From contig NC_079487.1 of assembly GCF_020520425.1 (NCBI RefSeq), forward strand, positions 131,338,385 to 131,402,384: a stretch of 64,000 bases of DNA, in the 5' to 3' direction. The notes beneath the pieces are model-generated. The model did no database searches. It worked only from the letters and a program-made list of their open reading frames with translations, and was not told the DNA's origin. The DNA is from Spinacia oleracea. Lineage: Eukaryota > Streptophyta > Magnoliopsida > Caryophyllales > Amaranthaceae. The position numbers and the translations under genes are program-made. Positions 37,913-64,000 of the stretch are shown one piece after another (the stretch's first letter is position 1; each line of letters opens with the position of its first letter).

Positions 37913-38295
37913 TGATGAAATCGAACAAACAATGTGAACAAAGCTTGAGCAATACACAAACAATGGAGCTCATCAACTGTAAACTGAGTTGATGAGGAGA
38001 GAATAATTCTTTTATTACTAACTTGCTTAGAGTACAAGCTGATATTATGAAACGTAGTAAATAGAATAATGCTAAGGATAAAACTTATATAGTAGGAGCA
38101 ATGATGTGCTGTCTCAACCAATCAGAAGAGAGGAGCTTGCTGACAACCAATCAGATATCAACTCACTAACAAACAAACTGCCATGTCAGCATGTCAGTTA
38201 TGGAATTCAGTTACAAGAGGAATCATCCTGTGTGTGCGTATGCATGACTGCTACTGTGTGGCATCTCTGGTGCAACTATGTCATGCTGTCCAACA
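37913..38295 (-). repeat. 3' LTR of the Copia element
   Basis: 383 bp, TGATGAAATCG ... CTGTCCAACA. Matches the copy at 43048-43430. The pol frame runs 73 bases into it before its stop at 38223. Confidence 0.95.
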
Positions 38296-41200: not shown

Positions 41201-41684
41201 CATCCACACTGTATAGACCTGATCTGACACTACCAAGAACCTGTGGCCCTTTCATTGAATGGCCCTGAACATAGCATTTATCAGCTGTGAATGAGACTGT
41301 ACAACTCTGATCTTTGCATAATTTATTGATGGATAACAGGTTGTAATGAAAATCAGGAACATGTAAGACTCCTTTTAACTGAATATGACAATTTAAAGTG
41401 ACTGTTCCCTTATGATGCACTGCCACTTTTCTTCCATCAGGAATAGTAATGAACTCATTATCATCAAGTATAGCTTCATAAGTGTCAAACATGTTCAAGC
41501 TAGCACACATGTGATCTGATGCTCCACTATCCAATAGCCAACTAGATTTTGAACAGGTAAGAAAACAATATGTATTACCTGCCATGAAGGCATGACCTGC
41601 AGTATCTCCTTCCTCATTATGGTGTTCTGCTGCACTTGTCTTATCATTTTGTTGTTTGTTCAGAAGGCTCAACAGTTGAGTGCA
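38223..41684 (-). CDS. Copia pol: protease, integrase, reverse transcriptase, RNase H
   Basis: An open frame of about 1150 codons, same frame as gag and separated from it only by a TAA. In order: aspartic protease DSGAS (WLLDSGASDHMC); GAG-pre-integrase block (AQLWHMRLGHV); integrase core with the catalytic acids in HLDTWGPY, RSDNALE and QQNGVVERKHR; reverse transcriptase with LDVNNAFLHGDL and the catalytic YVDDILL; RNase H with DSDWAACPNTRKS and SSSEAEYRA; ending in a tail (HSQLADVFTKALP) typical of Copia. No internal frameshift is seen. There is no obvious start codon at the beginning of the frame, as expected if gag and pol were one polyprotein. Confidence 0.95.
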   Translation of the reverse strand, partial: CTQLLSLLNKQQNDKTSAAEHHNEEGDTAGHAFMAGNTYCFLTCSKSSWLLDSGASDHMCASLNMFDTYEAILDDNEFITIPDGRKVAVHHKGTVTLNCHIQLKGVLHVPDFHYNLLSINKLCKDQSCTVSFTADKCYVQGHSMKGPQVLGSVRSGLYSVDDNKLQVNEDSSAACLKASNNNTAAAQLWHMRLGHVPYHKIKMVIDSLAAPLAHDSICQICPVAKQPRSSFPVSSIKSTKMFQMIHLDTWGPYKHKTHTGCTMFLTIVDDFTRTTWTHLLKSKSDAVSVIISFLNMVETQFSSKVLCIRSDNALELCEGDMKQVLLQKGIVQQTSCSGTPQQNGVVERKHRHLLETARSLHFQSKLPMKYWGECVLCATYLINRMPLKSIGNLTPYEKLHGHKPLYEHLRSFGCLVYVSTSKAHRTKFDPRATACVFIGYSPSQKGYKVLDPKTGKISVSRDVVFHETHFPFHHSNNLLTEIPPDSSSFPSYLFLPVHTPLQPDPNTILPFTPSQTSTSASSPETSSSSSTPFTPFSQSNSPPDSSLLSSSVSSITSSVVTPPISSQLPRTSSRTHKPPSYLDNYHCYTSTHWCNLVSYKNLPDSHHAMVVLLENMTEPRSYKEAVQKPEWVQAMEKEIQALLHNDTWEVVALPAGKKPIGCKWVFKVKLKADGSLERCKARLVAQGFTQKFGIDYEETFSPVVKMSTVRCIIAYAASMKWTIYQLDVNNAFLHGDLHEEVYMKMPEGIPNPDNQVCKLKKSLYGLKQASRQWFAKLHGELHLLGFIQSKNDYSLFIKKTDTHITLAAVYVDDILLTGDHLPTITALKKHLDDVFSIKDLGIMSFFLGIEVGYLPEGVVLTQKKFTKSLLTDCDFDLHKTAATPLSLNTKLFSDEGMPYEKPEHYRTLVGKLNFLTHTRPDLCFAVQLLSQFMHLPRIPHVSALHHVLRYVAHTAGQGILLRATNSLTLQAFSDSDWAACPNTRKSVTGYVLLFGNSPVSWKSKKQGTVSKSSSEAEYRAMAAAASEVTWLVRLLEEIGVTNLKPVTLHCDNQSAIYIGKNPVFHERTKHIEIDCHFTRDKVLEGLIQLTYLPTHSQLADVFTKALPSPQFNDLLSKLGLSSVTPSLRGGVGQHDIVAPEMPHSSSHAYAHTG
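38296..38306 (-). other. Polypurine tract of the Copia element
   Basis: On the minus strand a run GAGGGGGGG lies directly before the 3' LTR, where plus-strand DNA synthesis is primed. Confidence 0.8.
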
Positions 41685-42779
41685 TTATTCTGCAGTGAGA
41701 AAACCAGGTTGAGTCTGTGAGTGTTCTTTTTCTGCAGTAGTATAGTGTTGCTGCTGATATTCCATCAGATCTTCATCTGTATAGCCTTCATCTGTGTAAG
41801 CAGCTCCTGCAACTCTTTTATCAGACTTAAAACCAGTGAAACCAGGTGGAAAACCATGCAATTTAAAACATCTTTCAGTGCTATGACCATTGACTTTACA
41901 ATGATCACAGAAATAGATGGATGGCTTCTTATATGTTGTTGGCTTACTCCCAGCAGCCACACCATTATACTGATAGTTGTTCTTGTAGTATGGTTGACTC
42001 TTGTAAGAGTTGTATCCACCTCTATTCTGATTGTCATTGTATCTCCTTCTGTCTGCTCCAAAAGCATGACTCTCATGATGTGGTGCAGGTGCGCCAATCT
42101 CTCTTTGCTTTTCTTCTTGTGCCAGCATTCTGTAAGCATGAGATATTGTAGGTAAAGGTTGCATCATCAAGAGACTTCCTCTGGTTGTAGCCAGATGTTC
42201 CCCCAATTTCATGAGAAATTGCATCAACCTTTGATCCTGTTGCATCTTAACAATCCTCTGAGTCAGATTACAAGTACACTGATTACAGGTACAAGTTGGC
42301 AATGGATTTGCTGCACTTATTTTATCCCATATTGACTTAATTTCTGTGAAGAACTCTGCTACTGTATGACCTCCTTGTGTGATCTCAGCTGATTGTTGTT
42401 CTAATGAGAACAATTGTGGTCCAGATACAAAACCAAATCTCTCCTCTAAATCTAGCCATATCTCTCTAGCAGTATGGTAATACAAAACACTTTTGGCAAT
42501 AGAGCCATCAAGGTTAAACAGCAACCATGATATCATCATATCATTGCATCTCATCCATGCTTGATAAGTAGCATCTGTAGGATCTGGCCTTGTTAATGTT
42601 CCATTCACAAAACCTAACTTGTTCTTGGATGACATTGAAATCATCATGCTTCTTTTCCAATCTCCATAGCCTTCTCCTTTGAATTTAATCGAGACTAACT
42701 GACTAGCTGTGTTATCAGTTGGATGCAAGTAAAAAGGACTAGCAGGATCCTGATTTGGGGCTAAAATTGGTGTTGCCAT
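41685..42779 (-). CDS. Copia gag
   Basis: 364 residues starting at the first ATG after the primer site. The N-terminal part (SPFYLHPTDNTASQLVS, GDWKRSMMISMSSKNKLGFV) is the Copia gag domain. Near the end lies one zinc knuckle, CDHCKVNGHSTERC (C-x2-C-x4-H-x4-C), for RNA binding. It ends at a TAA (41687-41685) after FLTAE. The reading frame continues beyond the stop into pol. Confidence 0.95.
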   Translation of the reverse strand: MATPILAPNQDPASPFYLHPTDNTASQLVSIKFKGEGYGDWKRSMMISMSSKNKLGFVNGTLTRPDPTDATYQAWMRCNDMMISWLLFNLDGSIAKSVLYYHTAREIWLDLEERFGFVSGPQLFSLEQQSAEITQGGHTVAEFFTEIKSIWDKISAANPLPTCTCNQCTCNLTQRIVKMQQDQRLMQFLMKLGEHLATTRGSLLMMQPLPTISHAYRMLAQEEKQREIGAPAPHHESHAFGADRRRYNDNQNRGGYNSYKSQPYYKNNYQYNGVAAGSKPTTYKKPSIYFCDHCKVNGHSTERCFKLHGFPPGFTGFKSDKRVAGAAYTDEGYTDEDLMEYQQQHYTTAEKEHSQTQPGFLTAE

Positions 42780-43035
42780 TCTATTCTAGATAGAAATGCA
42801 GTAATGCAATAATTTGAGAGAGTAACCAGCAAAAGATTTCAATGAAACTTTCAAGAAGATTTCAGCAGAAACACAGAATTGGCAGAAGAAGTTCCTAATC
42901 AATCAGCAATTAGGAATACAGACAACAAAGAAGAAATGAGGATTAACAGACCTCAAAATCGAAGAACTCAGAATTTTGATTGAATTGTACCAACAGAATA
43001 GGAGAGAAAATCTGATCCAGGATCTTGATTCTACT

Positions 43036-43047
43036 GCTCTGATACCA
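43036..43047 (-). other. Primer binding site of the Copia element
   Basis: On the minus strand TGGTATCAGAGC starts immediately after the 5' LTR. This is complementary to the 3' end of plant initiator methionine tRNA. Confidence 0.9.
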
Positions 43048-43430
43048 TGATGAAATCGAACAAACAATGTGAACAAAGCTTGAGCAATACACAAACAATG
43101 GAGCTCATCAACTGTAAACTGAGTTGATGAGGAGAGAATAATTCTTTTATTACTAACTTGCTTAGAGTACAAGCTGATATTATGAAACGTAGTAAATAGA
43201 ATAATGCTAAGGATAAAACTTATATAGTAGGAGCAATGATGTGCTGTCTCAACCAATCAGAAGAGAGGAGCTTGCTGACAACCAATCAGATATCAACTCA
43301 CTAACAAACAAACTGCCATGTCAGCATGTCAGTTATGGAATTCAGTTACAAGAGGAATCATCCTGTGTGTGCGTATGCATGACTGCTACTGTGTGGCATC
43401 TCTGGTGCAACTATGTCATGCTGTCCAACA
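43048..43430 (-). repeat. 5' LTR of the Copia element
   Basis: 383 bp, apparently identical to the copy at 37913. Flanked by the GTTTC duplication at 43431. Confidence 0.95.
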
Positions 43431-43435
43431 GTTTC

Positions 43436-46400
43436 GATGAGAGTAAACGGAGAGAAAGGTAGGGGAACATTCTTGGTTGGATAAAGAGGAGGAATAGTTT
43501 CAATTTTTCTTGTAATTTATACAACTCGCTAATTTGGGCAAAAAATAGCAGGTTTTGGGTCATTTTCGAACAAGGCCAAATTTATAACTAAAAAAATCAA
43601 TTTTGAGTTGCTCAAAACGCACCCAATTTTTTTTTTAAATCGAGTCTGACCAGAAAGCGGGCCTAAAAATCTACCCAAACCCCGTTATTTTCGGGTCGGA
43701 CCAGCAGCTCGAGCTCATCGATCATGATCAAGTCTAAGAAAAAGTGTAAGAAACGGGAGAAGGTGGAGGACCCAGAAGGCCAGAAGTACTTGTATATAAG
43801 ATTAGGTTTTGGTTCTTTATTTAATTTTCTATTTTATGAATATTATTGCAAAAATGAAAATAAAAACTGAAGTATTATATGAAAATAAAAACTGAAGTAT
43901 TATATGAAAATAAAACCCTTCAATACCTCTTTTCTATCATCCTTTGATAATGTTGTCTGGCTTGTACCAATAAAAAGTAGAATGCATAATAATTCTATAA
44001 GTGAGAAAGCATTGAAATATTCCCTCAAAAAATAGAAAGCATTGAGTTAACACAAAGATATTGCATGTGGCCTATATTCAAAGGCCATGTCATTTACGCA
44101 CATGTTAGAAAAATTGATCAAAAAATAATACATGTGCTTTTGGAAAGAAAATTATCAAATTGTGATCAAAAAATAATACATGTGCTTTTGGAAAGAAAAT
44201 TATCAAATTGATGTGCTTTTAGAACTACCTTTAAAATGTTGCATTTACCAATAACCGCTACTTAATTAACAGTATTTTGCTAATCAATTATAAAAAGATT
44301 CAATCATTAAAAAAAGTGTTAAACCTTCTTAAAACTAGATATTATCTGAGACGCTATCGCCAAATACAAAGACCTAAATCTTAAACAAAAATTTCATGAT
44401 TAATTGATGATATTAGTACAAGTACTTCGTATATACTCCGTACTACGGAGTACATAGTAATTTAGTATTTGGCGTATGGTATCGATCGAAATAGACCGTA
44501 AGCAATGTGAGTATGTGACAATCAAATTTCGCAATATGTGATTATGTGTGGCAATGTGGGGAATTTTACTTCTTTAGCCGGAGAATGTGGTGGTAAGGTA
44601 ACTACTAGATGGGGACTTTAATCTATAAACTAGTACGAATAGTAACTCTTATTAAGACTTTGTGTGGAGAAATCATGCCAATGTTTTTTAGAAAGATCAC
44701 ATGATCACATCTATATTAACTAATAAGGGGGCACATTGTCCCATTCCCACCAACAATTACATTTCATTTTCAGATGTAATATTCACCATTTGGAATCCAA
44801 CGACTACTTGTATGATTATATAATTTATATTCTACATATATTCATAACCATTACGTACACATTTGCGCGTAAAGTTCGACAACAAAATAATATATTGTAT
44901 TCAGGTATCTTATGTCTGTTAGCTCACTTATGCAGGTTAACGCTTGAGAGAAGGGGACGGTTAGGGAATCAACGTTCCCAAGCTTGACACGGGTGATGGA
45001 GCTCAAATTTACTATCTTCAAGTCGCAAAATGAGTTCCCTACGCCTCATCAACTATACCAAACAAGTTTGGTTATGTATAAAGTTTATGTGAAACCAAAA
45101 TTATGACCATAATTTAAAGCGTAATATACGTACATAGATGCATATAATCCATACATAATTAAAGCTACTAGTCATGGTTTGGGTTTGTTGACTTGGGTCA
45201 ATCATGAGGTGCTCGAGCATGATTTAAGTGATTTTCTAAGACATCAATTTGTTACTTGTGTGAAATATAATTTGCTTATAATCAAAGAAAATGCACCAGG
45301 GTCTAGGCCAAAAATCCAGGGTTTAACTAAACTTGACAAATTAATTCATGTTCCCCTCAATTTGTGGATTATATATTGCATGTAATTAGTTTAGTTAGTC
45401 TATTACTCGCTCGTAGACATCATTTAAGTTAAAATAGGAAGATCCATAAGAAACGAAGGGAGTACTTATTAAATAGATAATTAAAATTAAGATCTCAGCT
45501 CAAATAAAATTTCTACGAATTTAAGGTTTAGCAAAACAAAAAAATTTAGGGATCAATGAACTTAATTTGAGGATTGGAAAAAAGATTATGGGATCAATGA
45601 ACTTAATTGTGTATGTCACTGAAGAAGTATTTGCATTTCCACCCGTTTTGTATTTGATTAATAAGACCGACCAAAAATCATGGTAGTATCCATATACGAT
45701 AATACGAAGTGAAGTATCTTGATATGCAGGGTCGGAATATCGGGGGGTTAGCGGGAGCCTTGGCACCTCTACGTTCCGATTCTTTTGAAAAAACCAGTTC
45801 GAAAATATTTAAAATTTTGAAAAATAGGCAAATCTTCTTACTTTGTCCTCTAAATAAGGTATAATTTAGTTTTGACCCTCATATATATAATTTCTGATCC
45901 ACTGTTAATATGGATATAAAACTATAGATTAGTCGGTGTGAGTGTGACCCATGGAAACTATAATCTATTAAAGTATTAATTAATTATATCGAAGCACTAC
46001 ATAGTAGTAGTAGTAAAATAAATCAACTCATCCTAGAATAAACTTCAATTCCTCAACCTCAAGTTAATTGCATATATAGATCTGAAAAACACATCGATCA
46101 ACTTCATTTATATAAAATCCTACTCCGTAATAATTAATCCAGAATCCAGCTATAAAGAAAGTACACTATAACTAATAATATAATAGAAAATGCCAAATAA
46201 AGAAAAGCAAATGAAGGTTCCCACAAAATAAATAATGTAGAATGGTCTTAATTTATTGAATAATTCATGTTCCTTGTTGAAATTCTCATTGATAAATGAT
46301 TTTAGTAGTAAATAATGAGTGTGCCTTGAGTACAAGGCAAGTGCCATAACATCCACGGTATGGACCAATTAATCTCATGCATATTAGTCAACATATGTAT

Positions 46401-48943: not shown

Positions 48944-49149
48944 TTAAGTATTGAAATAGGGATATTTTATGTATTATGAAAGTTGAGAGGTATTTTATGA
49001 ATGAAAGTTAAGAGGTATTTTATGAATTTTTTTAAAACTCGGGGTATTCTATATAAAAACCTTTAATTCAATTACTAAAGCAGCGCGTCTCCTGTGAGAC
49101 CAGTCACACCATCAACTTGATGGTGTGACGAGCGCGAAACCAATAGCGT

Positions 49150-49575
49150 ACCTCCCCTAAAACTATAAAAAAAAAAAGTAACAGATCTAAACTATAGAAG
49201 TAACATACCTAAACTAAAAAGTACCTCCTCTAAAATTATATATAAAAAAAATTAACATGTCTAAACTATAGAAGTAACATACCTAAACTAAAAATGTACC
49301 TTCCCTAAAACTATTCCGTATAAAAAAAAGTAACATGTCTAAACTATAAAAGTAACATACCTAAACTAAAAAAGTACCTCATCTAAAATTTTAAAAAAAA
49401 GTAACATGTCTAAACTATAGAAGTAACATACCTAAACTAAAAAAAATACCTCCTCTAAAATTATTAAAAAAAAACTAACATGTCTAAACTATAGAAGTAA
49501 CATACCTAAACTAAGAAGGTATTTCCCCTAAAACTACTCCGTATAAAAAAAGTAACATGTCTCATATAAGAATTT
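49150..49575. repeat. Minisatellite with 71-79 bp units
   Basis: About five and a half copies. Each unit holds 'aacatgtctaaactatag', 'gtaacatacctaaact', a 'gtacctcc.ctaaaa' word and a poly-A of variable length. Unit starts fall near 49179, 49252, 49331, 49402, 49477 and 49552; the last is broken off. Confidence 0.85.
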
Positions 49576-50243
49576 GGGTTACTAAAGAGGCCAAATGAGA
49601 ATAATATATCCAAACCTCGTACCTAAAATCAAAGTCTTATTTTCTTCATGATTAATGACTCAAATACAATCCTAATGCGGTCAATTCTCATTTTTATTTT
49701 GAATAATTAGCTCCTTTGTTTCATCATTTAGGAGCTGACAAACAATAATTCATGGTGATTTATTTCATTTATATATGACTATGAAATACCTCGTACGATA
49801 TATGCTTAATTTTTTCCTTCCATGAATCAAGATGACTAGATTTATGAAATATATATACTGCAATACAAATAGTTGTACTTGTTAGTCGAATACTTAGGGA
49901 TGTTAATGAGGTGGATTTTATGGGAGATCCGCCTCAAATAGGTGGGGATAGGGGGAAATTTAACGGGTAAGGGGGAAGGAATGGGTATAAAAATGATACG
50001 AAGCCGCCATGGGTGATGGGCGGGTTTGAATTTTGTGTTGGACCCACCCCACCTCTCTTCATACCCCTCAACCCGATCCGAGAATCCTTTCCTACATGAA
50101 TTAAAAAAATTATGAGAAGATCTAAAATTGAACATTATTTTTATGTGTTTGGATTTGTTTGTACGTGATGAATGAATTTAGGTGAGACTTTTAAGTATGT
50201 TTTTTTGGATTTTTTATTATGGCATGTACTTTTTTCCATTATA
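49576..50243. other. Intergenic, no gene seen
   Basis: At about 49895-50095 a GC-richer, G-strand-biased patch ('gggatgttaatgaggtggat', 'atgggcgggtttg') looks like a piece of a common plant repeat whose ends I cannot define. Confidence 0.3.
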
Positions 50244-50498
50244 CTTCCTCCGTTTCAAAAAGATCTTTACCGTTACTATTTGCACGAACTCCAATGCAAT
50301 ATTTAACTACTAATATATCCAATTTCGTATGTGAAAAAGTTATAAAAATTTAATATTCTGAAAATACATACCGAGACCAATCTGACAAGATCTTACATGT
50401 AACATTTTGATGTATATAATAGTGAGAATTTACGGTCAAAGTTTTTATACTTTGGACATATTTTCCAAAGCGTAAAGAACTTTCAGAAACGGAGGTAG
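50244..50498. mobile_element. Stowaway-like MITE, family member 2
   Basis: Ends CTTCCTCCGTTTC and GAAACGGAGGTAG with TA on both sides; 255 bp. The interior has 'cgagaccaatctgacaagat', matching the related copies. Confidence 0.75.
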
Positions 50499-50500
50499 TA

Positions 50501-51379
50501 TATGTTATTTTAGTTGTATTTACATATGTTGTCATAATCAACATAAGTTTTCACCTTGTCACAAGTCAAACTTATGTGTGAACTGTGAAGTCAATTGCGA
50601 AATGATTAGGAGTGGCTCAAGCGAAAACCTGCATAGCTAGCTAGGTTGGTTAACATGCTATAAGTACTATATGTTATCATTGTTTGCTAAATAAGAAAAA
50701 TTAGGAGAATATTGTTTGCTAAATAGGAAAAATTAGGAGAGTATTGGCGCGGGGTACACATTGGTGGGTCCGGGAAGGCCATAAACGCTTGTCCGTAAAA
50801 GGAAAAAAATAACAAAATTGATGCCAACAACTGTGTGACAACTGTCACCATATATTTGACACCAACAAATCGTGTGGTAAGACCGTGATTTTTAAACATT
50901 TATAATTGTAAAAAAATACTCTTTTTAAGGGGAAGAAAGTGACAAAATGTACAATTTTATCGAGCTGGGTAGAAAAGAAAATTATTAGGTGCACTCGGGT
51001 GTAGCGGACACCCAATGATATCTTTATGCCTTTTGGTGGTCCTTCTTGCATTTCTCTTCACATGTACCGAAAAAATGTGAGAGGATGCACGGTGCACCCA
51101 GGTGCGTCTAATATGTTTGAGGGTAGAAAATGTTAGTATTTGACTTTCAACCATCGCCCATCGGGGTCGGTCGTCTTCTGAGAAATGAATGATCTGGGAC
51201 CAATTTGTCTTAAAATTAGGAAGATAGGTGAAGATTCAAAACCGCCCTTGTTCAAATTCCCCAAAATGCTTTTTGTATAATTAATCAAAGTGAAACCAAC
51301 TCAATGTGTGAACTGTGAAGTGTCAACTAACACAAAATTGAACCACACATTTAACATGCTACTTTCGTGGTCCATTTTA
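50501..51379. other. Intergenic, no gene seen
   Basis: A 26-base word, starting 'tgtttgctaaataagaaaaa', is repeated in tandem near 50680-50740. No coding region. Confidence 0.35.
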
Positions 51380-51381
51380 TA

Positions 51382-51637
51382 CTTCCTCTATTTTTTTTTA
51401 ATTGCACCATCTGGTATTTCACGCTTGCCAATGCACTATTTTAACCACTAATATCTCTCATTATACATTTTAAAAAATTATAAAAAATTGATAATTTGAA
51501 AGTATATTTCGAGACGAATCTAACAAGATCCCACATGAATATATATTTCCTTACATATAAATCGCAAAAAATAACTATATAAGAATATGGGAATAGTGCT
51601 AAAACCAAGATGGTGCAATTATTAAAAATGGAGGAAG
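51382..51637. mobile_element. Stowaway-like MITE, family member 3 (inverted to member 1)
   Basis: 256 bp, ends CTTCCTCTATTTTTT and AAAAATGGAGGAAG, flanked by TA. Its sequence is essentially the reverse complement of the copy at 47805, including 'cgagacgaatctaacaagat', so the two lie in opposite orientation 3.3 kb apart. Confidence 0.8.
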
Positions 51638-51639
51638 TA

Positions 51640-52320
51640 GGATTCATAGAATACTAAACGAACAAGGATGATTTATAATGTACTTCTTTGAAAAAGCTGG
51701 TACAGTGGTACATGTTAGATCAATCGAGAGAATAACCTGGTTCATAATCGGATTGGTGAATTTTAGTTGGCCTTTGATGAAATAGGATTCTTAGTTCCTG
51801 TATATGGTTGTATATTAAGGTGTTTCTGGCCGATTGTTGAAACAAGGTGAGCAAAGTCTCAATTTGAAAGGATATGTCGTTCTTTCTTACTTCTTACCTT
51901 TAATAGGTTTGATTTAGTCTCATATACTATTCATCAAGGAACTGAAACTAATTTTACATACCACTTATAATATATGGTACACCTCTATGCGCATATTAGA
52001 GAATGTGACAACATCATTTATCATTCCTCAACCATCGTCTATTCATACGATCACATTGCGTATGAGTATTTAATTTTTATAATAATTTTTGAACTACCAA
52101 AAGTACAAATCTTTATTAAGTGAAAAAAAAGTTACTGCCAATCTCCTTGTAATAGGGTCAATTTTACTCATTTTGGTGGAATGTAGGAAAGTAAGTAGAA
52201 TTTACTAATAAATGAAAAAGATAATCGTAACAAAAATTAATGGATTAATGCATCTTTAACCTTTTAAAAGTTGGAGATGTGTTTCTTATGAACAGTAACT
52301 CCCAATCTCCTATGTTCTAT
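51640..52320. other. Intergenic, no gene seen
   Basis: AT-rich with no open frame of note. Confidence 0.35.
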
Positions 52321-52802
52321 TCATGAGCTCCGGGCCTTATAAATTTCGCTTCCCCAACTAAAGTCAAGGCCATAAAGGGGAACGGTCAACCGACTAATGA
52401 CCCCAAGATTTGGTTTAGCATAAAATGAGCCATTATTACTCTTACGTGAACGGAGGTCTTGAAAAGGGGAAAAATCAATCAAACTTTTGTAAAGGCAATA
52501 TATTGATCGTCAACTTTATCAATTGCTTACCTTGTTCTAGCACAAGTACAACCTAAGGGTAGTGTTATGATATCCCCTGGCTTAGAGGAGGCAACCACGT
52601 CTAAGATAGCATTCCCGAAGTATTTGGGCGGTAGTGGTGGATACAAACGGTTGCGTACATCGACAGAGAAGCCTAAGCACGTAAGGCTGCTCACGGTGGG
52701 GCTCACGCGCCTACAAGTTGGGGTGAGGAGAAAGAGATCGATAAAGCTACTTGGGCAAAATACCTTGTTATCAGTAGTAAGATGATGACCTGTTGTCTCC
52801 AA
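52321..52802 (-). pseudogene. BAHD acyltransferase remnant
   Basis: Minus strand. The first block (52802-52530) includes FSVDVRNRLYPPLPPKYFGN, the middle signature of BAHD acyltransferases, then a donor GTAAGC. The second block (about 52440-52321) reads LGVISRLTVPLYGLDFSWGS, which carries the C-terminal family motif DFGWG changed to DFSWG, followed by a stop. The catalytic HxxxD part and about 55 residues between the blocks are missing. BAHD enzymes acylate small molecules from CoA thioesters, but this copy cannot be active. Confidence 0.7.
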
Positions 52803-54676
52803 CTTTTAAATAGTTAAAGATAGAAGAATGTCTACCTAAAGTTAATTGCCCTCCTCCCCTCCTAAAAACTGTTACAACTAACCTGACTATTGAAGCCAAC
52901 CACCAATACGTACAATATTTTGAAGAAAGATATAGTAAAAAAAATGTTTGTGTTTTGCTTTTTATTTATGCATGATATGAAGCTCAAAATTTTTGTGTCA
53001 TGAGCAAGAAAAGGTTATGAAAGCCTAACAATGACGATTCTATGGAAAATTCTTGCTAGAAAAGTTGAAGAGGATGTACAAGAAATAACGGAAGAATTTA
53101 TGTAGACCTATCCGAAAATTAACATAAAATACGCCCATAAGAGAATAGCTTATCTCCTTCAAAGTATTTAATTGATGTATCACATGGTGTCATATTATAC
53201 TAAAACTATGTCTTCTACCTATCATTTGTTTATTAAATTCTTCTTTAACTTGTCACGTGTATAAGTCATTTCAATTCATAACTTTTAGATATACGCATAT
53301 AGAGTATTGAACAAAGTTGGTGCCATGTAGCCACTCCTAGCGCGCACGTGCGCGCGGCCAGGCCACTAGTATACTTAAAAGTTTTTTATTTGACATACTT
53401 TGATGTTACATTTTTATATACGTATACATGGTGCATCAACTATAGGTTATCAAATAAGACTTGGCCTAATGGTAAAAGTTTGGCCTTACTTATAAGCTAA
53501 AGATTATAAGATAAAACCCCACAGACTCTTTAGAGGTAAGGATTCTCATATGATCCTTCCTCACTTTCAACGAATATGCATGACCTATAAAGCTGCCTAG
53601 AAATACCTGTGACTTTGTGAGAGACAACATTTCAATAGAGTCGTTTATCTTACCTCCGTCCATGATAATAGAGTATACTCACTAGTCACTACTATAAGGT
53701 CCCCCTCTGCAGCTCTGCCCTATTTATTTGCCCCATTTTGCATTTATGTTCGTCTTCCAAATATTGTCTCTTTACTGTAAATGCGGGACAACAACTTTAC
53801 TCTTATATAAAATACATTTGGTTCATCCCTTTTGTCTCTTTTTAATTCCACTCACCAATTTCTTAATAAACACATTTATTTTATGGCCAAACAATAAGGG
53901 ACAGAGAAAATATAATTAGTGGACAAATGTACAACTTTAAGTAGAAATCAGACAAAAGATTACTCCATATTAGATTAAAACCTGGGCCCAACTCCATATT
54001 AGATTATTGGGTTGTACCATTGTAAAATGGGGCTCCATGCGGCTCCATATTGCTTTTATGAATATTTAACCCAGGAATTTGTGATCCAACCAGATGAATG
54101 TATTGTCTAAAAACCTAAAGATTTCTGAAGTTCTTTCACTTTTCAATCCCAAGTGTATATGCAGTTGCCCCGTAAGGCCCGTAACGACATTCGTACTTTG
54201 TACTTAGTATACTATGAATAATAGAATTAGCGTGGATCGGATAAAATATAACTAATCATTTGTCAATTGTCATATAACATGAATTTTAAAAAAGACGCGC
54301 AGCTCATTTCAATACTCGCTCGTACATTTTCTCTCCCCTCCCACACCTTACACATTTTCACATAATCCTTCTTTATATAATATTGACTCTTCTTGTTTGA
54401 CAAAACTCAATAGACTGCACATGTATGATGTATTATACGGAGTATAAAACAACAGAATTATGTAAAATTGAAATATTGTACCAGAGAACATAAGAAATAC
54501 TCATCATACATAACAAACACACAAGTAATATTGTTTAAGTATTTTACACACAAGTAATTATTAAATCATACAGTACAAAAACTGTTGATAATACACTAAT
54601 GCACACTTATATAGAAATGCATGTTAACAAATAAATCGTCCTAACACAATTGCATAAACGTTACAGAAATTCCTGG
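52803..54676. other. Intergenic; possible Helitron 3' end
   Basis: No gene is seen. At 53340-53370 a GC-rich perfect 16-base palindrome (gcgcgcacgtgcgcgc) is followed by 'ggccaggccactag' then T, like a Helitron 3' terminus; the matching 5' end was not found. Near 53465 'ttggcctaatggtaaaag' resembles a tRNA A-box. Confidence 0.4.
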
Positions 54677-57013
54677 TTAAATGTCTCCGTAGACAAAATC
54701 TTCAACAACATTACCAAACCCATAATCATCATTCGGTCCTTGGTCAGACTTTAAAGCCCGATCAACATTTTCTTGGTCCCAAACACGAAGGCGGCATGCA
54801 TTGGGTATTAAGTTTAGGTTAGCCCTTGACGAAGCAAGTCTATCGATGTAGATAATCTGATCAAGACAAACTGTATATGTTAAAAATTTACATGCATATA
54901 CGCTTGATAATAACAAATAACGTTATAAAGTAAATGTACTTACGAGCAAGAGTAGAGTACAACCCCCATAGCCCTCCTTCGAGGCATTGAATTTCTTTCC
55001 GTATTTCACAAGCCAGTCCAACACATATCGTGCCCAGTTATAATCAGATGATTCACTAGCAAGTGATACGACACTCGCAAGCAAAGGGCTTATCCATCCA
55101 CACTTTTGTGTTGGACATAAAATGGTACCAAGTGCGTATAATAAGAAGTGCATTTGAAATGTCTTCTTATTAGGTGTCTCACCAACGATTTTTCCACATA
55201 CCTCAGACTCTTTAATAGCTCCGTATATCGTATTCTCCTTGTACATCTTCTTAATGTTAAGAGCGACACTCTTGCATGAGTAACTTGGGTGGAATAGATG
55301 GTCACCATACTGTAATCCTAAGACCCGACCTACCATTTCTTCATCTATCCTCACTTTGTAGTTATCCCTTATTTTAAGTTCTAACGTGTTGGGATCAAAC
55401 CTAGAAGTAATCCAATAACCAAATCGGGGATCAATGTTACCGATCCTCATAAACAAATTAAAGTTCCTCGAAACCCATATCTACAACCCACTTTTTTTGT
55501 GTATGTGTTAAATTTGCAACAAGAGTTGCAAATTGAGAAACAGCACATCCCATTCCAAGAATCTGAAAAGATGAAAATGTTCTTAGTAGGAGTAGTATTA
55601 TTAGCTACACTGATAGCAATCATCATGATTCATGACCAAATAAAGTTGTATATTGCACTACATTAATTTTATGTTGTTTACGAAACATAATCGTTAGTAC
55701 GGAGTATATAATTAATGTAGCCAACAATAGGGTCAAAGTGATTTATGTGAATAGTGCAAAAAGTCAAACTAGGTCGAGTATTAAGGATTTAAGGGACGGA
55801 GGGAGTATGTCATACCATACCTTCTGGATACATTGACCATCACTGATATTATCCCTATTCTGTTGACTGTTACCCCTAACTTCGATTGTTCTTGATCTGG
55901 TACACTGCATATTAAAAGTAACTCAATTCAGAAATAAACACAATTCACAGTTTTGTAAAAGGGATCATTTTACAATTAGCTCATGTAACTCAATTTTATT
56001 AATATGCAAATATATTGAAATATAATAATAAGCTTTTTCGATTGTACCATTTGTGCCACTTCAGTATGTGTTGTAGTTGATATCCCAACCATGTTTTCAC
56101 TCTCATGTACCTCTTGTGAAACGACATGCACCCTCTGATTATCATCAACCCCTTCTTTATTCAACTCATCAGGTTTCGAAGATTTAGCCTGAGAGATTTC
56201 ACATTAACTTCAAACACAAGTCTCACAAACAAATTAATGAGGAAGTAAAAACCCATATAAGATATGTATTACTACTAATTAAATACATATCTGCCAACAA
56301 AAAGACAAAATAGGGAAAAGACAAACACTAAACGACAGAGTACTAAAGGACAAACACATCAATCAAGTTGTGTTTTTATGTGAAAAATGGAGATTTTATG
56401 TCTCTGATATGTTTTTGCTAATACATCTCTGAGTGCCGCCTCACCGTTCTCCAAACAATATGTTATATAGCACTATAGCAGAGAACAGAGAATAGTATAA
56501 TTTACCTCTCTTGGTTTTGGTTGACTTATCCGAACTTTGCTAGGACGTAAGTTGACCTTTAACATTTCAGTTGGTGGTTTGGTTGGAACTCCAACTATGT
56601 TTTCTTTATCCTTCCGATCAAGCCACGGAGGTCGTGAAAAGGGTTTTCCAATTGGGTACTCCTTACCATACAGCACATCACGCACAACCTATATATTGTG
56701 TAATTACAAATTATTTTTTACATACACTTCAACGTATGTATATAAAATAATAAGTTGGTTGTACGTTGGATTACCTGCGCGTGGCCAAAATTTCCATCAG
56801 GTCCCTTATCCTGCGCAATAACAGACTCCACGTCGTCTGTGTTCCAAGCTTCAAGTCGTGGCTTATCTGTTTTCCAACCCTTTGGAGTTTTTTTGTACTT
56901 AATCCTGTCTAGATATGCAATCTACAAAAGATGCAACCATGCATTGAAGATGGTCACCAACAACACTTACTAAATTTGCAAGTAAGCAACTAATTTTTTA
57001 AAAAAATATCATA

Positions 57014-57272
57014 ATTCCTCCGATTTTTAATACTTGCAACGTTTGAGATTTTTACACTATTCACATATTCTATTTTGACAATTGTTGGTAATTTATACGT
57101 AAGATAAAACATAGGCATGTGGGATCTTGTTAGATTTGTCTTAATGTGTATTTTCAAAATATAAATTTTTTATATTTTTTGCTTAAAAAGAATTAAAGAT
57201 AATAATGATCAAAGTTTTGCATTGACATGCGTGAAAGTAACCAACGTTGCAAGTAAAAATGAATAGAGGAAG
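57014..57272. mobile_element. Stowaway-like MITE, family member 4, in an intron of the AT-hook gene
   Basis: Degenerate ends ATTCCTCCGATTTTTA and TGAATAGAGGAAG. The interior 'tgggatcttgttagatttgt' ties it to the copies at 47805, 50244 and 51382. It lies between exons 57877-57295 and 56921-56775. Confidence 0.65.
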
Positions 57273-58251
57273 TATATTAGAGAGTAAAACTTACCAACAA
57301 AACAAATGCAGATGGTTTTCCGGGCTCTTTACCACGCCCCGTCATCCATTCATATACGAAACCACACCAATTCCACTCAAATGGGTCAGTGATGTAGTCT
57401 GATTTGAGTAAGGGCAACAACTTAGGTGAAATTGTACTTGTTCATGCAAAACAGGCTTCCTAAAGTGAGGAGTATGAAATGCCTTAAAAACCAAAATCGG
57501 TTTTCCTCTATACAACACTTGTTGTATACATCAATGTAATTAATTCCCGTCCTAGTGTCATACACATTCTCAAACTCGTCAATTTCCTCATCATCTAATT
57601 TCAATGATTTGAAATCTTGGTCCCTTTGCGGAATTCCAGTTATCCAAGAGATCATATTCTCGTCTATTTCAACCTCATAATCGTCACGTATGCGCAACAC
57701 TTGTCTCTTCCAATCCCATCTCCCCTCTAGCCAAGACATAAAATGCCTGTCTACCTTGGTAATTTTTAGATCTAATATGGGCCCAAAACCCGCCCACTGA
57801 ACCCAGTTTCTTCGTACGGGGCACAATGTTTCAACCATTTCTGTCACAAGAAAAGGATACAACCTCAACGAAGTATGCTGCATTCCACATGTCAAAACAG
57901 AATACATTTAACAATTATTAACAAAATATTATAGAATATGAAAGTGTTGTTGTCAGTTTTAAATACCTGCTTATGTGCCTTACTTTGACCCTCTTTCAGA
58001 GGAGGCCTTCCCGGTCCTCCCGGAACCCATTTTCCAGCCGGCTTCTTCCTAACCGCTCTTTCGGCTTCAGTTAACTTAGGCCTCCCCCGCTTTCTCCTAG
58101 GGGGGTTGTTATCCACTATGTGGGACAATTTCTGTGTTGTGTTGGTTGGGTTGTTAGGAGGAATGTGAGACTCCATCTTCGGACTCTGAGAATCACTTAC
58201 TGAGTTTAAGTTATGATCATTACTTTTCTGGAAGGCATCATTCTGTTGCAA

Positions 58252-59582
58252 TGTATTTCTTAATTAGTATAAACATATCGAAGGCGCATAAAACCGTGTT
58301 CGATCCCCCGCAGCAAACATATCGAACACGTAATAAAGTAAATAAATTACTCGAACACAACAATATTAAGAGTAAATCAGTCAAATTGTAAGCAATAATA
58401 AGGGGAGACTCTTATTTAGGGCTCGTAATCTTTCTCCTATGCCACCTAAATACAAACTCAAAATAAGAGTCTCTTCCAAAAAATTGCAGACATGAACTAA
58501 CTCTTTAACACTACCTCTTATTCTCTTTTACCCTAACTTTTTTATTTTATTTTCATGCAAAAAAATAACTGATATAGCACTTGCTCTTATTTGTAAGAGC
58601 TAGCTCTTATTTCAGATTTTTATCTTACAAACTCTAAATAAGTCTCTCATTTCTCACCTAAAAGCTAGCTCATTATGGCACTAGCTCTTAGTGGTCATAA
58701 CTGGTTCCGATTACGGATCTAGATTTCAGGGACTCGATACCTAGTGGGTGGTACCCAATGGGTATCCGTTGGCTCCAGTTCTAGGACCGGGTACCCAGTG
58801 GGACCAGTTCCAAAACCAGATACCCGTTACCAAACGAATACAGATAGCTCAAAAGCTATAATAACTAGTTGTTGTTTTGAGTTAAGAAGTGTAGAAAAAA
58901 TAAATAAGTAAACTTAAAAAATTGACAATTTGATAGTTTATTAGAAGAAAAAAAATCACAAGTATAAATTCAACTTTTAACTTAATTGTTAATTAAAACA
59001 AGCATGAGAAAAGTGAAGGCTAATCGGATACCGGTAACCAGTTCCACTAGTTTTAGTACTGGTTCTAAAAAAATTCGATCCGATTTGACTGATTCCGATA
59101 CCAGATCCAAAACTCAGGACCCGCATCTGATTGATACCAGCACCGGTTCCTTATTTTTTAACTGGGTACCTGGTCCCCTTCGAGGAAGTACAAATACATA
59201 TCAGATATGTATGGGCAAATACATATCAGAACAAAAGACAAAATAGGAAAAATGTCAAAAAGAAATTAAATGGTACTTTTCTAAACACAAATGGTACTTT
59301 TTTTCACAAAATGGTACTCTTTTTTACATGAATGGTACTTCCTTTTTTGTCTTTTACCTATTTATCTTTTAGTAAACGACCCCGGTCCCGTTCACCTCCA
59401 TATATATTCACGTTAGAATAAAATAAATACATAACTAACATACTCAGTAAATAACGTGTTACATACACAAATAAATAAATACCATACTCAGATTATTATA
59501 AGAAATAACTTCATTTAAACAAACTAAACTTCATGTAAAGAAATCAAATTGTTTAACTAATTAATTAAATCCTCGAAAATAC
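58252..59582. other. Long intron of the AT-hook gene
   Basis: 1.3 kb between the first two recognised exons. It contains GC-richer stretches at about 58705-58850 and 59025-59185 made of 'ggtaccc' and 'ggttcc' words in both orientations, probably one MITE with complex ends, and a short run of 'aaatggtac' repeats at 59270-59340. Confidence 0.4.
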
Positions 59583-59997
59583 CTCGGCCAGAAAAGATGC
59601 AGGTCCAGTTTCTCCTATGTCGGGCTTCTCAACAGGGTCATGTGTTCGGTTGTCAATCGTGTTGCCGATTGGAACTTCAGTTTTGCCCTCAATGTTGTCG
59701 CCGGTTGTGTCTCCAATTGGTTTTGTACTTGGATTTCCGTTCAGTTTCACAATTTCGTTGCTTCTTGGGGCTCCGATTGAGTCCTCATTCGGGTTCGAAA
59801 CCACATCTTTTAAGTCATTAAAGGCGGGGTTTTCCCTATACAAATAATCGCAATCGAGTTAAAACTGTTGTTCAAAACTTAATGTAATTCATCAAGTGAT
59901 ATAAAAATGAAGAAAATTGAAAGTGATTCCCATACATAATTAACCTCGTACATGCAAATACGAATAATTAAAATCGTTAATTGAAACACAAAGTGAT

Positions 59998-60690
59998 TGT
60001 CTACTGTTATCCCACTTTTTGGACTAACGACATAACCGTTCTAACGTTTGGTCATGTCGTGTCAGCCAGGTCATGTCGTGTCGCAGGTAAACACAGCTCC
60101 AGGGAGATACGTCCGACGTAGCATCATACAACGAGGTATAGCCGACGAAGGACAGGCGACAAAGTACAAGCAACTGAGACGCGTCCTCGAGAAACGGGCT
60201 GATGAAGATAAGTTGACCTAAAGCCCATGATAGGCAGCGCCGTCAAGCTAGCAAGAACGAGTCCAAGACTCACGCGAGAAGCGCGGAAGCAGTTGAAGGC
60301 TGAAGAGACGTGTGATGAAGATACTCCTATCTTTGTGGGATTTTCTCAACCGATTAGACCGTTGAGAATACCCTATAAAAGGACGGAGATAATGATAAGC
60401 AAGCCACGTTCACTCAAGCACCGAAACTCTTAAGTTATAAACTGTTTCATTATTCATTATTGTACTTGAGATTTTAGTTATCGATTCTCAGAAAGAAAAG
60501 CATAAACAATCATATAGAATACTTAGTGGATTGATAGCCTCATAGCTATCCGCGGTTTTTTACCTTGTTCCTGGGTTTTCCGCGTCAACACTCCTCTGTG
60601 TCGTGCCTCTTTATTTGTGTCGTTGATTCTTTGCTTAGTTAGTGTCGACCCTAGCCGAAAGTCGCCCCCATACGAATTTTGGCATAAACA
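59998..60690 (+). repeat. 5' LTR of the Gypsy element
   Basis: About 693 bp from TGTCTACTGTTATCCC to ...GGCATAAACA. A TATAAAA box lies at 60374-60380. The left edge is fixed only by the TG and by the 3' position of the primer site, because the partner LTR is outside the window. Confidence 0.75.
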
Positions 60691-60710
60691 GTTTGGCGCC
60701 GTCTGTGGGG
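60691..60710 (+). other. Primer binding site of the Gypsy element
   Basis: GTTTGGCGCCGTCTGTGGGG directly follows the LTR. The TGGCGCCGTC core is the usual primer-site sequence in plant Tat-like Gypsy elements. Confidence 0.75.
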
Positions 60711-60748
60711 ACATTAACTAGGTTTTACACAAAAGCACCCCTCTCACC

Positions 60749-62755
60749 ATGACTACTGGAGAGATGACGATCGCAGAGATGAAGGCGGCTTACGAGAAAG
60801 CCCAAGCCGAACTAGCCCAAGAGAGGGCATCCAATGAAACCCTCCAGAAAGAGCTCGAATCTGTAAAGAGCAACAAGCACCAGTCCCGCTACAAAGGTGG
60901 GAAGCCAAAAAAGCTAACGTTCGAGATGCCCGATGACTTTGAAGACGTGACCGACGATGAGGAGGAAACCCGTGAGGAAGAAGACAAAGAAGCTCCCGAT
61001 CCGGTGACCCAACGCCTGAACAAGATGGATGCACGCATGACAAAGCACTATTCCCGCCTGATGAAGTTGATGACCAGGTTCCCCGGGGCACCTACACCAG
61101 TGGAGACCGAGCCGACCGACGGATATGCCGCGTCGCCGTTCTGCGAAGCGATCGCTAGAGTGACAGTTCCGCACACACTCCGGCTCCCAACCTGGACCAC
61201 CCTGTACGACGGGACATCCGACCCCTATAGGCACGTCAACTTCTACAAGCAGCGCATGTGGCAGATCGGGATTCCGCACGACCTAGTGGAACCTGTTATG
61301 TGCAAATCATTCGGCGGCACCCTTGATGGAGCAGCTTTGGAATGGCTCACGAACGTCCCTCCCAGATCCATCTCCTGTCTGTCCGACCTCATCAACGCCT
61401 TCTATCAACAATTCGCCAGCAGTCGCCAGTTAGAAAAACAAACCAGTGATCTCTATCGGTTGGTTCAAGGGCCAACCGAGTCGGTACGCGATTATTTTAA
61501 CCGTTTTAATTGTGAAAAAATTGGTATAAAAAATTGTGATGTCAGGACTGCTATTGAGGCGTTCAAGAGAGGCCTCATCCCCAATTCGGAGCTATACCGG
61601 GAAATAACCAAATACCCCTGTGCAACTTTCGAAGAGGTGCGATCAAGGGCCACCGCCCAGATGCGAATCGAAGACGACGAGGTTATCCGAACAGCATCTC
61701 AACGATCGACGGGGGGCAGCAGCGACAGAAGATCGTACACCCCAAGGAACAACAATTGGCGACACCAACCATATGTTCGGCAAAACCAGGTACAAAGTGT
61801 CAATCAGTATTATGATACTAACAATGTTTACAGGAACGAGCGGGTCGAACACCCCAACATCTCCGACTACGGCTTCAACGTCGACATTGGAGGTGTGGTG
61901 AACGCCCTTCAAAATGTAGGTGGAACAGTCAGATGGCCCCGGAAGAACGACAGACCGGACTCCATGAAGGACATGAGCAAATGGTGCGACTTCCACCGCG
62001 ACAACGGACACACAACCGAGGAGTGCATCTCCCTCCGAAAGGAAGTCGCATACCTCCTGAAACGGGGGCATCTAAAGGAACTGTTGAGCGACAAGGGAAA
62101 AGAAACATTTTCCAAAGAGCAAACCACCCTACCCGGCCCAGCGACAAGCAGCGAGCGACCAGACCCACCACCGTTCAATAAAGTGGTAAATGTTATTTCC
62201 GGTGGTTCAGATATTTGTGGACTAACCTCTTCTGCAGCTAAAAAAATTAACAGGGGAGAATCTGAGACCGTAGAAGAGGGACAAACCGAAGACGAGGTCG
62301 CACTACACAGGTCCCTGACCGCAATGGCTATTACTTTCGACGATTCAGATTCTGTAGATACACAGCGGGAGCACCACGACGGGTTGGTAATATCGCTCCC
62401 AATAGGGAACGCATTGATCAAAAGGATACTGGTCGACAACGGAAGCTCAGCCAACGTACTGTTCTTGGAAGCACTACAAGAAATGGGATTAGAAGAGACA
62501 AACATAGTAAGGAGATCAACAGTCCTGGTAGGGTTCAGTGGAGAAGCACTACGGACGGTAGGAGAGATATCGCTGCCTACATACGCAGAAGGCGTCAACA
62601 TGATGACCAAGTTCAACGTCGTCGATTGTCCATCAGCGTACAACGTCATCCTAGGACGACCATGGATCCACAAAATGAAGGCAGTGCCATCAACATATCA
62701 CCAATCAATCAAATTTCCAACCAAGTGGGGGGTCATGGAAATCAAAGGGCAGTAA
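60749..62755 (+). CDS. Gypsy gag and protease
   Basis: 668 residues from the first ATG after the primer site. Residues about 8-50 form a coiled coil (AEMKAAYEKAQAELAQERAS). The retrotransposon gag domain spans about 125-310 (GAALEWLTNVPPRSI, SVRDYFNRFN). A zinc-finger-like C-x2-H-x4-H-x4-C, CDFHRDNGHTTEEC, lies near 412. The protease active site is DNGSS (LVDNGSSANVLFL) near 567. The frame ends at TAA after VMEIKGQ, but the same frame continues into pol. Confidence 0.92.
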   Translation: MTTGEMTIAEMKAAYEKAQAELAQERASNETLQKELESVKSNKHQSRYKGGKPKKLTFEMPDDFEDVTDDEEETREEEDKEAPDPVTQRLNKMDARMTKHYSRLMKLMTRFPGAPTPVETEPTDGYAASPFCEAIARVTVPHTLRLPTWTTLYDGTSDPYRHVNFYKQRMWQIGIPHDLVEPVMCKSFGGTLDGAALEWLTNVPPRSISCLSDLINAFYQQFASSRQLEKQTSDLYRLVQGPTESVRDYFNRFNCEKIGIKNCDVRTAIEAFKRGLIPNSELYREITKYPCATFEEVRSRATAQMRIEDDEVIRTASQRSTGGSSDRRSYTPRNNNWRHQPYVRQNQVQSVNQYYDTNNVYRNERVEHPNISDYGFNVDIGGVVNALQNVGGTVRWPRKNDRPDSMKDMSKWCDFHRDNGHTTEECISLRKEVAYLLKRGHLKELLSDKGKETFSKEQTTLPGPATSSERPDPPPFNKVVNVISGGSDICGLTSSAAKKINRGESETVEEGQTEDEVALHRSLTAMAITFDDSDSVDTQREHHDGLVISLPIGNALIKRILVDNGSSANVLFLEALQEMGLEETNIVRRSTVLVGFSGEALRTVGEISLPTYAEGVNMMTKFNVVDCPSAYNVILGRPWIHKMKAVPSTYHQSIKFPTKWGVMEIKGQ

Positions 62756-62812
62756 AGGGATGCGAAGAAATGTTACGAGACAGCACTGAAACCATCCAAG
62801 TCACCCATCTAG

Positions 62813-64000
62813 CAATTACAGCCAGGGTCGACGTCGGACGACCCCGACGACCAACAAATCGACGAGATAGTACTAGACCAGACAAAGCCAGACCAAGTCA
62901 TAAGGATCGGAGCCTCACTGCCTGACAACATCAAAAGTCAGATAGTGTCGTTTCTAAGAGAAAACTCGGACTGTTTCGCTTGGTCACACGAGGACATGAC
63001 AGGAATTAGCCCAGACGTGATTACCCACAAGCTCAACGTCGACCCCAGCTTCAGACCGGTAAAACAGAAACGACGTAAGTTCGCACCCGAAAGGAATAAA
63101 ATCATAGACGAAGAAGTACAAAACCTGATAGATTCAGGGAAGATCAGAGAGGTCAAATATCCAGACTGGTTAGCAAACGTCGTCGTCGTCAGCAAAAAGA
63201 ACGGAAAATGGAGAGTCTGCATCGACTTCACAGATATCAACAAAGCTTGCCCCAAGGACCCATTCCCTCTGCCGCACATCGACGCCCTGGTCGACGCCAC
63301 AGCCGGACACGAGCTACTCACATTCATGGACGCCTACTCAGGATACAACCAAATCCTTATGCACACAGACGACCAGGAAAAAACATCTTTTGTAACGGAT
63401 AGAGGAATTTATTGTTATAAAGTCATGCCTTTTGGTCTTAAAAATGCAGGTGCGACGTACCAAAGATTAGTCAACAAGATGTTTAAAGACCAACTCGGAG
63501 ACACAATGGAGGTATACATTGACGACATGCTGGTGAAATCGAGGAAGGCTGACGATCACGTGGAACACCTACGACAATCCTTCGACATACTAAAAAAGTA
63601 CGGTATGAAACTTAACCCGACTAAATGTTCTTTCGGAGTGTCCGCAGGAAAATTCTTAGGTTACATCGTCACCCAACGAGGAATCGAGGCCAGCCCCGAC
63701 CAAGTGCGCGCGATCATCAACATTCAATCCCCGCGGAACATAAAAGAGGTACAACGCTTGACAGGGAGAGTGGCGGCACTGAACCGTTTTATATCACGGT
63801 CGTCGGACAAGTGCCGATTATTTTACGACGTCCTACGCAAAAACAAGGGGTTTAACTGGTCCGACGACCACGAAGCAGCCCTGCAGAACCTCAAAAAATA
63901 CATGATGTCGCCGCCCCTCCTATCCAAGCCAAAAGAAGGAGAAGTCTTACAACTCTATTTAGCCGTTAGCTCGACGGCAGTGAGCGCGGTCCTAGCTCGA
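62813..64000 (+). CDS. Gypsy pol: reverse transcriptase, incomplete
   Basis: Open to the window end, same frame as gag. The RT motifs are in order: WLANVVVVSKKNGKWRVCID, FMDAYSGYNQI, MPFGLKNAGATYQRLV, the catalytic YIDDM, and KCSFGVSAGKFLGYIV. It then enters the RNase H region (YLAVSSTAVSAVLAR). It begins after a TAG at 62810-62812; between that and the gag TAA there are 18 codons in the same frame. Confidence 0.9.

Follow-up and report, generated by a model that had tools for sequence, protein, structure and literature searches.

A probable rearranged and decaying Mutator-like transposon fragment in spinach, with two paralogous genes apparently related to the plant mobile domain and DUF1985

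The VANC proteins of the VANDAL group of Mutator-like elements (MULEs) in Arabidopsis have been reported to contain the DUF1985 domain, to bind short sequence motifs within tandem repeats of non-coding DNA, and to demethylate elements of their own family (PMC5735166, PMC10398659). Some VANC genes, described under the name KIU, additionally carry a Ulp1 domain (PMC13317346), and in the KI-MULEs the KIU gene is reported to be reversed relative to mudrA (PMC2528002). MAIN and MAIL1, which are proteins with the plant mobile domain (PMD), are in turn reported to act in silencing, and MULEs to have captured PMDs (PMC5418596). Here we analyse a 64-kb stretch of the spinach (Spinacia oleracea) genome, C1:131338385-131402384 (hereafter the window), in which two copies of one domain, units A and B, lie on the minus strand in what an earlier note, made from the letters alone, had described as one gene. 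Based on searches against the same genome (894 Mb in 242 contigs), we present evidence that this locus is very probably a rearranged, decaying fragment of a MULE, and that A and B represent two separate genes of the element.

The internal repeat noticed in the earlier note is confirmed. In a single BLASTP comparison (E 2e-14), 36 of 117 residues (31%) are identical between unit A (57877-56775) and unit B (55562-54677), with their motifs in identical order, and in both the main exon ends in a hydrophobic block, followed by an intron and then by an exon starting with I.Y.DR. Unit A is, however, 68-69% identical to its A-type matches and unit B 81% identical to its closest B-type match, against 31% between the two; the duplication is therefore far older than the window locus, and A-type and B-type sequences represent separate lineages.

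Searches with unit B and unit A returned at least 151 and at least 150 matches respectively. Some of these belong together as parts of a single copy, and at low identity the two sets have members in common; the best among the matches listed reach 81% identity for the B-type and 69% for the A-type. From these we compiled 66 A-type entries (150 rows, identity at least 44%, with two neighbouring pieces merged and one 44% row from another element type excluded), 73 B-type entries (pieces merged, other element families of at most 47% identity excluded) and, from a separate search that gave 123 transposase matches, 114 transposase entries (pieces merged). Only the best-scored candidates entered these sets, and a neighbour that is seemingly missing may simply be unscored. 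A divergent B-type gene lies beside 48 of the 66 A-type entries, at 4.6-6.8 kb in 43 of these 48; three of the 48 are partial matches with 48-50% identity to unit A. In seven entries, 44-53% identical to unit A, the B-type gene lies upstream of the A-type gene on one strand, and ten have no B-type gene within 30 kb. Only in the window do the two genes share a strand with A as the upstream member (1/66); divergent pairs make up 48 of the 56 A-B pairs found within 30 kb. A MULE-type transposase converges on the A-type gene in 52 of the 66 entries (42 of them at 3.7-5.6 kb), is on the strand of the A-type gene in one, and was not found within 40 kb in 13, including the window; on C1 the nearest transposase among those listed lies 23 Mb away from the window copy. 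The companion transposases match Pfam PF10551 (MULE) at 6e-24 and SWIM at 4e-6 in locus L029, and MULE at 1.2e-32 and FAR1 at 3e-17 in L026. The usual order is transposase, A reversed and B forward, and A and B are, as judged from their homologues, separate paralogous genes rather than one.

An uninterrupted A-type gene at C4:172.66 Mb (L063), read from inside its AT-hook exon, comprises ten exons and 685 residues. All nine of its introns are in phase 0, with the first exon taken from an arbitrary internal point, and in the window the lengths of the six minus-strand exons with homologues are divisible by three, save for two that are frameshifted. Phase 0, which the earlier note had remarked on, is a trait of the family. 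The six later exons of L063 have no counterpart in the window. B-type loci typically contain an upstream exon with the motif RRWSKYM.VE, a second upstream exon, which we take to be PB1-like though it has no Pfam match, and a GRF zinc-finger gene downstream, each of the three being present in seven of the eight loci compared, a set that includes the loci from which the queries were taken. Locus G, to which unit B is most closely related, has within its 10 kb neither the first upstream exon nor the GRF gene. In the window, no match to the B-type upstream exons, the GRF gene or the transposase was found, save one at E 0.91, and the DNA similarity of unit B to the other B-type loci compared ends at or before 55592. 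The arrangement of the window could, we infer, have come from a deletion with an inversion, or from a deletion between two oppositely oriented elements. Most likely the locus makes no working protein: no transposase was found in it, nor the C-terminal exons of A or the N-terminal exons of B, B lies downstream of A on the same strand, and each unit carries a frameshift. The frameshift in unit A is a 5-base loss, accompanied by an in-frame loss of 3 bases, and that in unit B is a 4-base gain; neither is present in the two relatives aligned in each case.

The identity of the repeated domain emerged from profile comparisons. Pfam searches with the 13 members of an initial alignment gave weak PMD matches in four (best 1.1e-5) and DUF1985 matches in three, all below cut-off, and with 20 members PF10536 was seen in six (best E 1.1e-5) and DUF1985 (PF09331) in four (best E 0.008), again below cut-off; one member reached 24.7 bits against the PF10536 gathering threshold of 34.9. 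Stray matches to other families among the alignment members (in one of them 2TM, at 3.9e-4) were taken as chance. In hhalign comparisons the domain profile aligned with nine PMD sequences of the genome at a score of 48 (E 3.1e-6), collinear over 159 columns, while 100 column shuffles scored at most 18.8 and the reversed profile 15.8; the 20-member profile scored 43 (E 2e-5). Against six DUF1985-hit sequences of the genome the score was 35 (E 1.4e-4), with 100 shuffles at or below 21.7 and the reversed profile at 16.6. Because the profile scores far exceed those of the shuffled and reversed controls, the domain is, at the level of sequence profiles, a remote relative of PMD and DUF1985. Hence, the statement of the earlier note that no named family fits is true in that the members fall below the Pfam cut-offs, and incomplete in that such a remote relationship is detectable. 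Nine sequences of the genome (L042-L050) pass the Pfam DUF1985 cut-off. Eight of the nine contain a TNTFH motif resembling that of PMDs, and a profile built from six of the nine aligns with the PMD profile at E 1.5e-10; from these profiles PMD and DUF1985 look like one superfamily. Structure prediction for unit B alone gave a mean predicted local distance difference test score (pLDDT) of 41, and the model was set aside.

Other copies of the domain appear to be under selection, as the ratio of nonsynonymous to synonymous substitution rates (dN/dS) ranges from 0.09 to 0.38 across the 12 pairs reported, although these ratios are rough, with dS above 0.9 in 11 of the 12 pairs, and the near-identical copies J and K count twice. 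The ratio between unit B and its closest relative is 0.17, a value inherited from the history of the element and no sign of present function.

A related family in the same genome provides the boundaries of complete elements. Two of its copies, one on C6 (3398770 to 3437292, 38.5 kb) and the other on C4 (170711443 to 170744362, 32.9 kb), are 99.6-99.8% identical over long shared parts; about 5.7 kb of inserted sequence is present in the C6 copy and absent from the C4 copy. Both have terminal inverted repeats (TIRs) at their two ends, the best match being 63 nt at 84%, and the C4 copy is flanked on both sides by ACTTAATAG, a duplication of exactly 9 bp. The giant element encloses three domain genes together with a transposase that contains MULE and SWIM domains, and nine places among the listed matches of unit B carry the same series of three domain genes. 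These two copies are complete Mutator-like elements, and their near-identity suggests recent movement; CACTA, Helitron and long terminal repeat (LTR) identities for the large elements were dropped in light of the TIRs, the 9-bp duplications and the MULE transposase. The suggestion of the earlier note that the locus might be a piece of a DNA transposon is borne out by these homologues. No report of giant MULEs in spinach was among the papers listed from one open-access library.

Several observations weigh against the assignment of the window locus to a MULE. No TIR pair was recognised in window positions 50000-62000, where the inverted repeats comprise a pair resembling a miniature inverted-repeat transposable element (MITE; 51417-51604 and 57049-57236) and short matches, and the window is without a transposase match. 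The TIRs and target duplications come from one related family, in which the domain is 32-47% identical to the window units, and the window subfamily is closer to other elements (C, H, J and L063) than to the giant C6/C4 family. Furthermore, the C6 copy is flanked by TAGATAGAT inside a GATA repeat, where the length of the duplication is ambiguous.

A single host gene, in which tandem exon duplication produced an internally duplicated domain as the earlier note proposed, would accord with the common strand of A and B, their similar exon patterns and the phase-0 introns. It is exceedingly improbable, given that A and B exist elsewhere as distinct paralogues in other orientations and are so much closer to their respective homologues (68-69% and 81%) than to each other (31%), that each unit is frameshifted, and that the window alone among the 66 entries has A preceding B on one strand. 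That note had itself named separate neighbouring genes as the observation that would speak against it, and two separate genes, mostly divergent, are what the comparison revealed. Domestication of a transposon gene was another possibility raised earlier, and would give it a host function in the manner of FAR1/FHY3 or MAIN/MAIL1; the dN/dS of 0.17 speaks for it, and the lack of a transposase in the window is as domestication would predict. We consider this too very improbable: both units are frameshifted, exons have been lost, an intact reading frame is not present, the family is repeated in the genome, and low ratios are common to the other copies, reflecting selection on the source elements. 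It is likewise improbable, if less markedly so, that the window represents a subfamily of its own, in which A and B stand in tandem, and is not a product of local rearrangement. Seven other pairs are indeed tandem, but with B upstream of A, the opposite order, and with 44-53% identity to unit A, and the order of the window recurs in no other of the 66 entries.

A further alternative accepts the fragment and differs over what the proteins do in intact copies: A and B could serve transposition itself, as a transposase partner or in end binding or integration. This is a plausible role, though we would not call it likely. The genes accompany a transposase in 52 of 66 cases, the domain is constrained, and AT-hooks would suit the binding of AT-rich ends; on the other side, those relatives with PMD or DUF1985 domains for which roles are reported act in silencing or anti-silencing (PMC5418596, PMC5735166). 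We tentatively favour, at a little under even confidence, a role of the A and B proteins in sequence-specific anti-silencing, which is drawn by analogy with the VANC and KIU proteins. Relatives of the window copy usually comprise, in fixed order, a MULE-type transposase, a convergent A-type gene and a B-type gene divergent from A. The A-type gene combines AT-hooks, the PMD/DUF1985-like domain and a C-terminal region with Ulp1-like motifs, and the B-type gene holds a second copy of the domain behind its N-terminal exons. The two proteins might bind non-coding DNA of their own element, and this binding would lift host silencing, like the reported action of VANC and KIU proteins on VANDALs, with the transposase then being expressed. 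A more specific version, namely that the giant TIR MULEs possess a two-protein system like VANC/KIU, formed by an anciently duplicated pair of the PMD/DUF1985 type, one member with AT-hooks and a degenerate Ulp1-like tail, both expressed from a common divergent control region and acting on the tandem arrays particular to their family, is possible yet on the doubtful side.

The direct links of the family to VANC and Ulp1 are weak, and several results count against the anti-silencing mechanism. VANC21 aligned with the 13-sequence profile in the right order at E 0.13, and gave no match with the 20-sequence profile; it is retained as a lead. The A-type tail after the domain contains W.V.NI and DCG-like motifs, seen by eye; in this C-terminus Ulp1 yielded no Pfam match and no profile score above shuffles, and the pairwise scores were equalled by 1-19 of 300 shuffles. 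VANDALs are moreover described as non-TIR elements (PMC13317346), and the related family here has TIRs. The short motif TTAGGT, which occurs in several arrays and was a candidate for a shared VANC-like 6-mer, was rejected after 119 of 300 shuffled sets were found to share some 6-mer equally widely or more. The dN/dS ratios, too, are rough given the mostly high dS values.

The Ulp1 identity of the A-type tail is statistically unsupported by the Pfam and profile tests and marginal in the pairwise ones. At the position that the Ulp1 His would be expected to take, L063 has Asn; at that of the catalytic Cys, relative C has Arg and two genes of copy A have Thr, though L063 does have Cys.

Tandem arrays of at least 2.8 copies with a unit of at least 69 bp were present in eight of the ten related loci scanned. 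Among these loci, H and I belong to a single family, as do J and K, and the segment that holds the large array of C is absent from copy D. The whole window, as a rough control with thresholds different from those of the related-locus scan, holds two arrays at a score of at least 200. One of the two, with 5.6 copies of a 74-bp unit, is at 49148-49562, 5 kb downstream of unit B. Arrays near B-type genes occur at L022 1593-2542, L023 1-2147, L024 8601-9686, L025 8390-9443, L028 8447-9259 and L020 2227-3029, with units of about 90-300 bp that differ between families.

The window locus itself retains six exons with homologues, each with AG before and GT (or a stop) after it on the minus strand. The first of these (57967..58242, phase 0) bears two AT-hook-like motifs, and its counterparts are 54-57% identical in relatives C and D and 48% identical in L063. 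The two AT-hooks of the earlier note stand in part: KRGRPK is a canonical AT-hook, and PGRPP a weaker one. This exon matched no Pfam family at E at or below 1, and Pfam searches on the window pieces gave nothing above cut-off. The main exon of unit A (57295..57877), with the PMD/DUF1985-like domain, is frameshifted in its 3' part, and is 583 nt long against 588 and 591 in two relatives; the five A-type sequences nearest to it among the matches listed are 68-69% identical. It is followed by the second exon of unit A (56775..56921, phase 0), with the IAYLDRI ... D.GPDG block and 61-69% identity to C, D, F and L063, and by a further A-type exon (56506..56688; VVRDVLYGKEYPIGKP), with 54% identity to C, 59% to L063 and 40% to F. 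The main exon of unit B (54944..55562) has its 4-base frameshift in the 5' part, and among the B-type matches listed the closest is 81% identical to it and those that follow are 72-74% identical; the GT after 54944 was read straight from the sequence, and the border position checked separately is 54941. The last exon of unit B (54677..54856), with IIYIDRL ... DQGPNDDYG and the stop codon, is 64-78% identical to B-type loci C to O and 40% to the giant family. Three other exons listed by the earlier note on this strand, 56048..56188 and 55821..55904, both with AG/GT borders, and the first exon at 59583..59846, an open frame, are unconfirmed, no homologue having been found in the loci compared (none convincing for 55904-55821). 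The feature end given earlier, 59835, is outside the outermost exon with homologues (58242).

A high-copy MITE-like repeat without assigned strand occupies 57011..57276 in the intron of unit A, with 27 of 45 match rows at 88-92% identity, and MITE-like sequence is also present in the stretch between A and B. Upstream of the locus, 60502-64000 resembles the flank of another copy, with 82% identity over 3.5 kb; we take it to be a gypsy-type LTR retrotransposon with gag- and reverse-transcriptase-like frames. The region at about 37852-43459, which contains a long open frame (41684-38226) and is flanked by LTR-like repeats, is presumably a Ty1/copia-type element. Among the related loci, the GRF zinc-finger gene lies at L028 4308-4841 (minus strand; Pfam 6e-6), L022 6319-6420 (plus) and L020 6613-7065 (plus). 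Frames that we take to be NAC-domain-like (L016 3617-4279, L025 348-935, L028 438-1130) and a presumed XRCC3-like fragment (L015 2396-3067) lie in or beside elements, which suggests captured host genes.

As transposon debris, the window locus does not warrant annotation as a two-domain gene. It is itself ordinary, and the interest sits in the element family, which includes MULEs of 33-38 kb and has kept the transposase-A-B order across many copies. If A and B act in anti-silencing, evading DNA methylation in a sequence-specific way would be a strategy of more MULEs than the VANDALs, and such a mechanism could, if true, explain the continued mobility of elements of this length.

The family can be set beside four known systems. 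It has in common with the Jittery/FAR1-type transposases the MULE and SWIM domains of its companion transposase, which we presume to be of the Jittery type; FAR1 is above cut-off in L026 and below it in L029 and L031, and the size of the element and its accessory genes differ. With the PMD proteins (PF10536; MAIN, MAIL1 and the PMDs borne by MULE and Gypsy elements) it shares a homologous domain core; the flanking parts of A and B differ and their Pfam scores remain below cut-off. In both this family and the KI-MULEs an accessory gene is reversed relative to the transposase, and the tail after the DUF1985-like domain is possibly Ulp1-like here; a Ulp1 domain is present in KIU, whereas that identity lacks statistical support in the A-type gene. 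Unlike the VANDALs, the elements described here are 33-38 kb long and carry two paralogous domain genes, one of them with AT-hooks; in both groups, however, a MULE carries accessory genes beside its transposase, VANC contains a DUF1985 domain that appears related at the profile level to the one described here, and family-specific non-coding tandem repeats are present.

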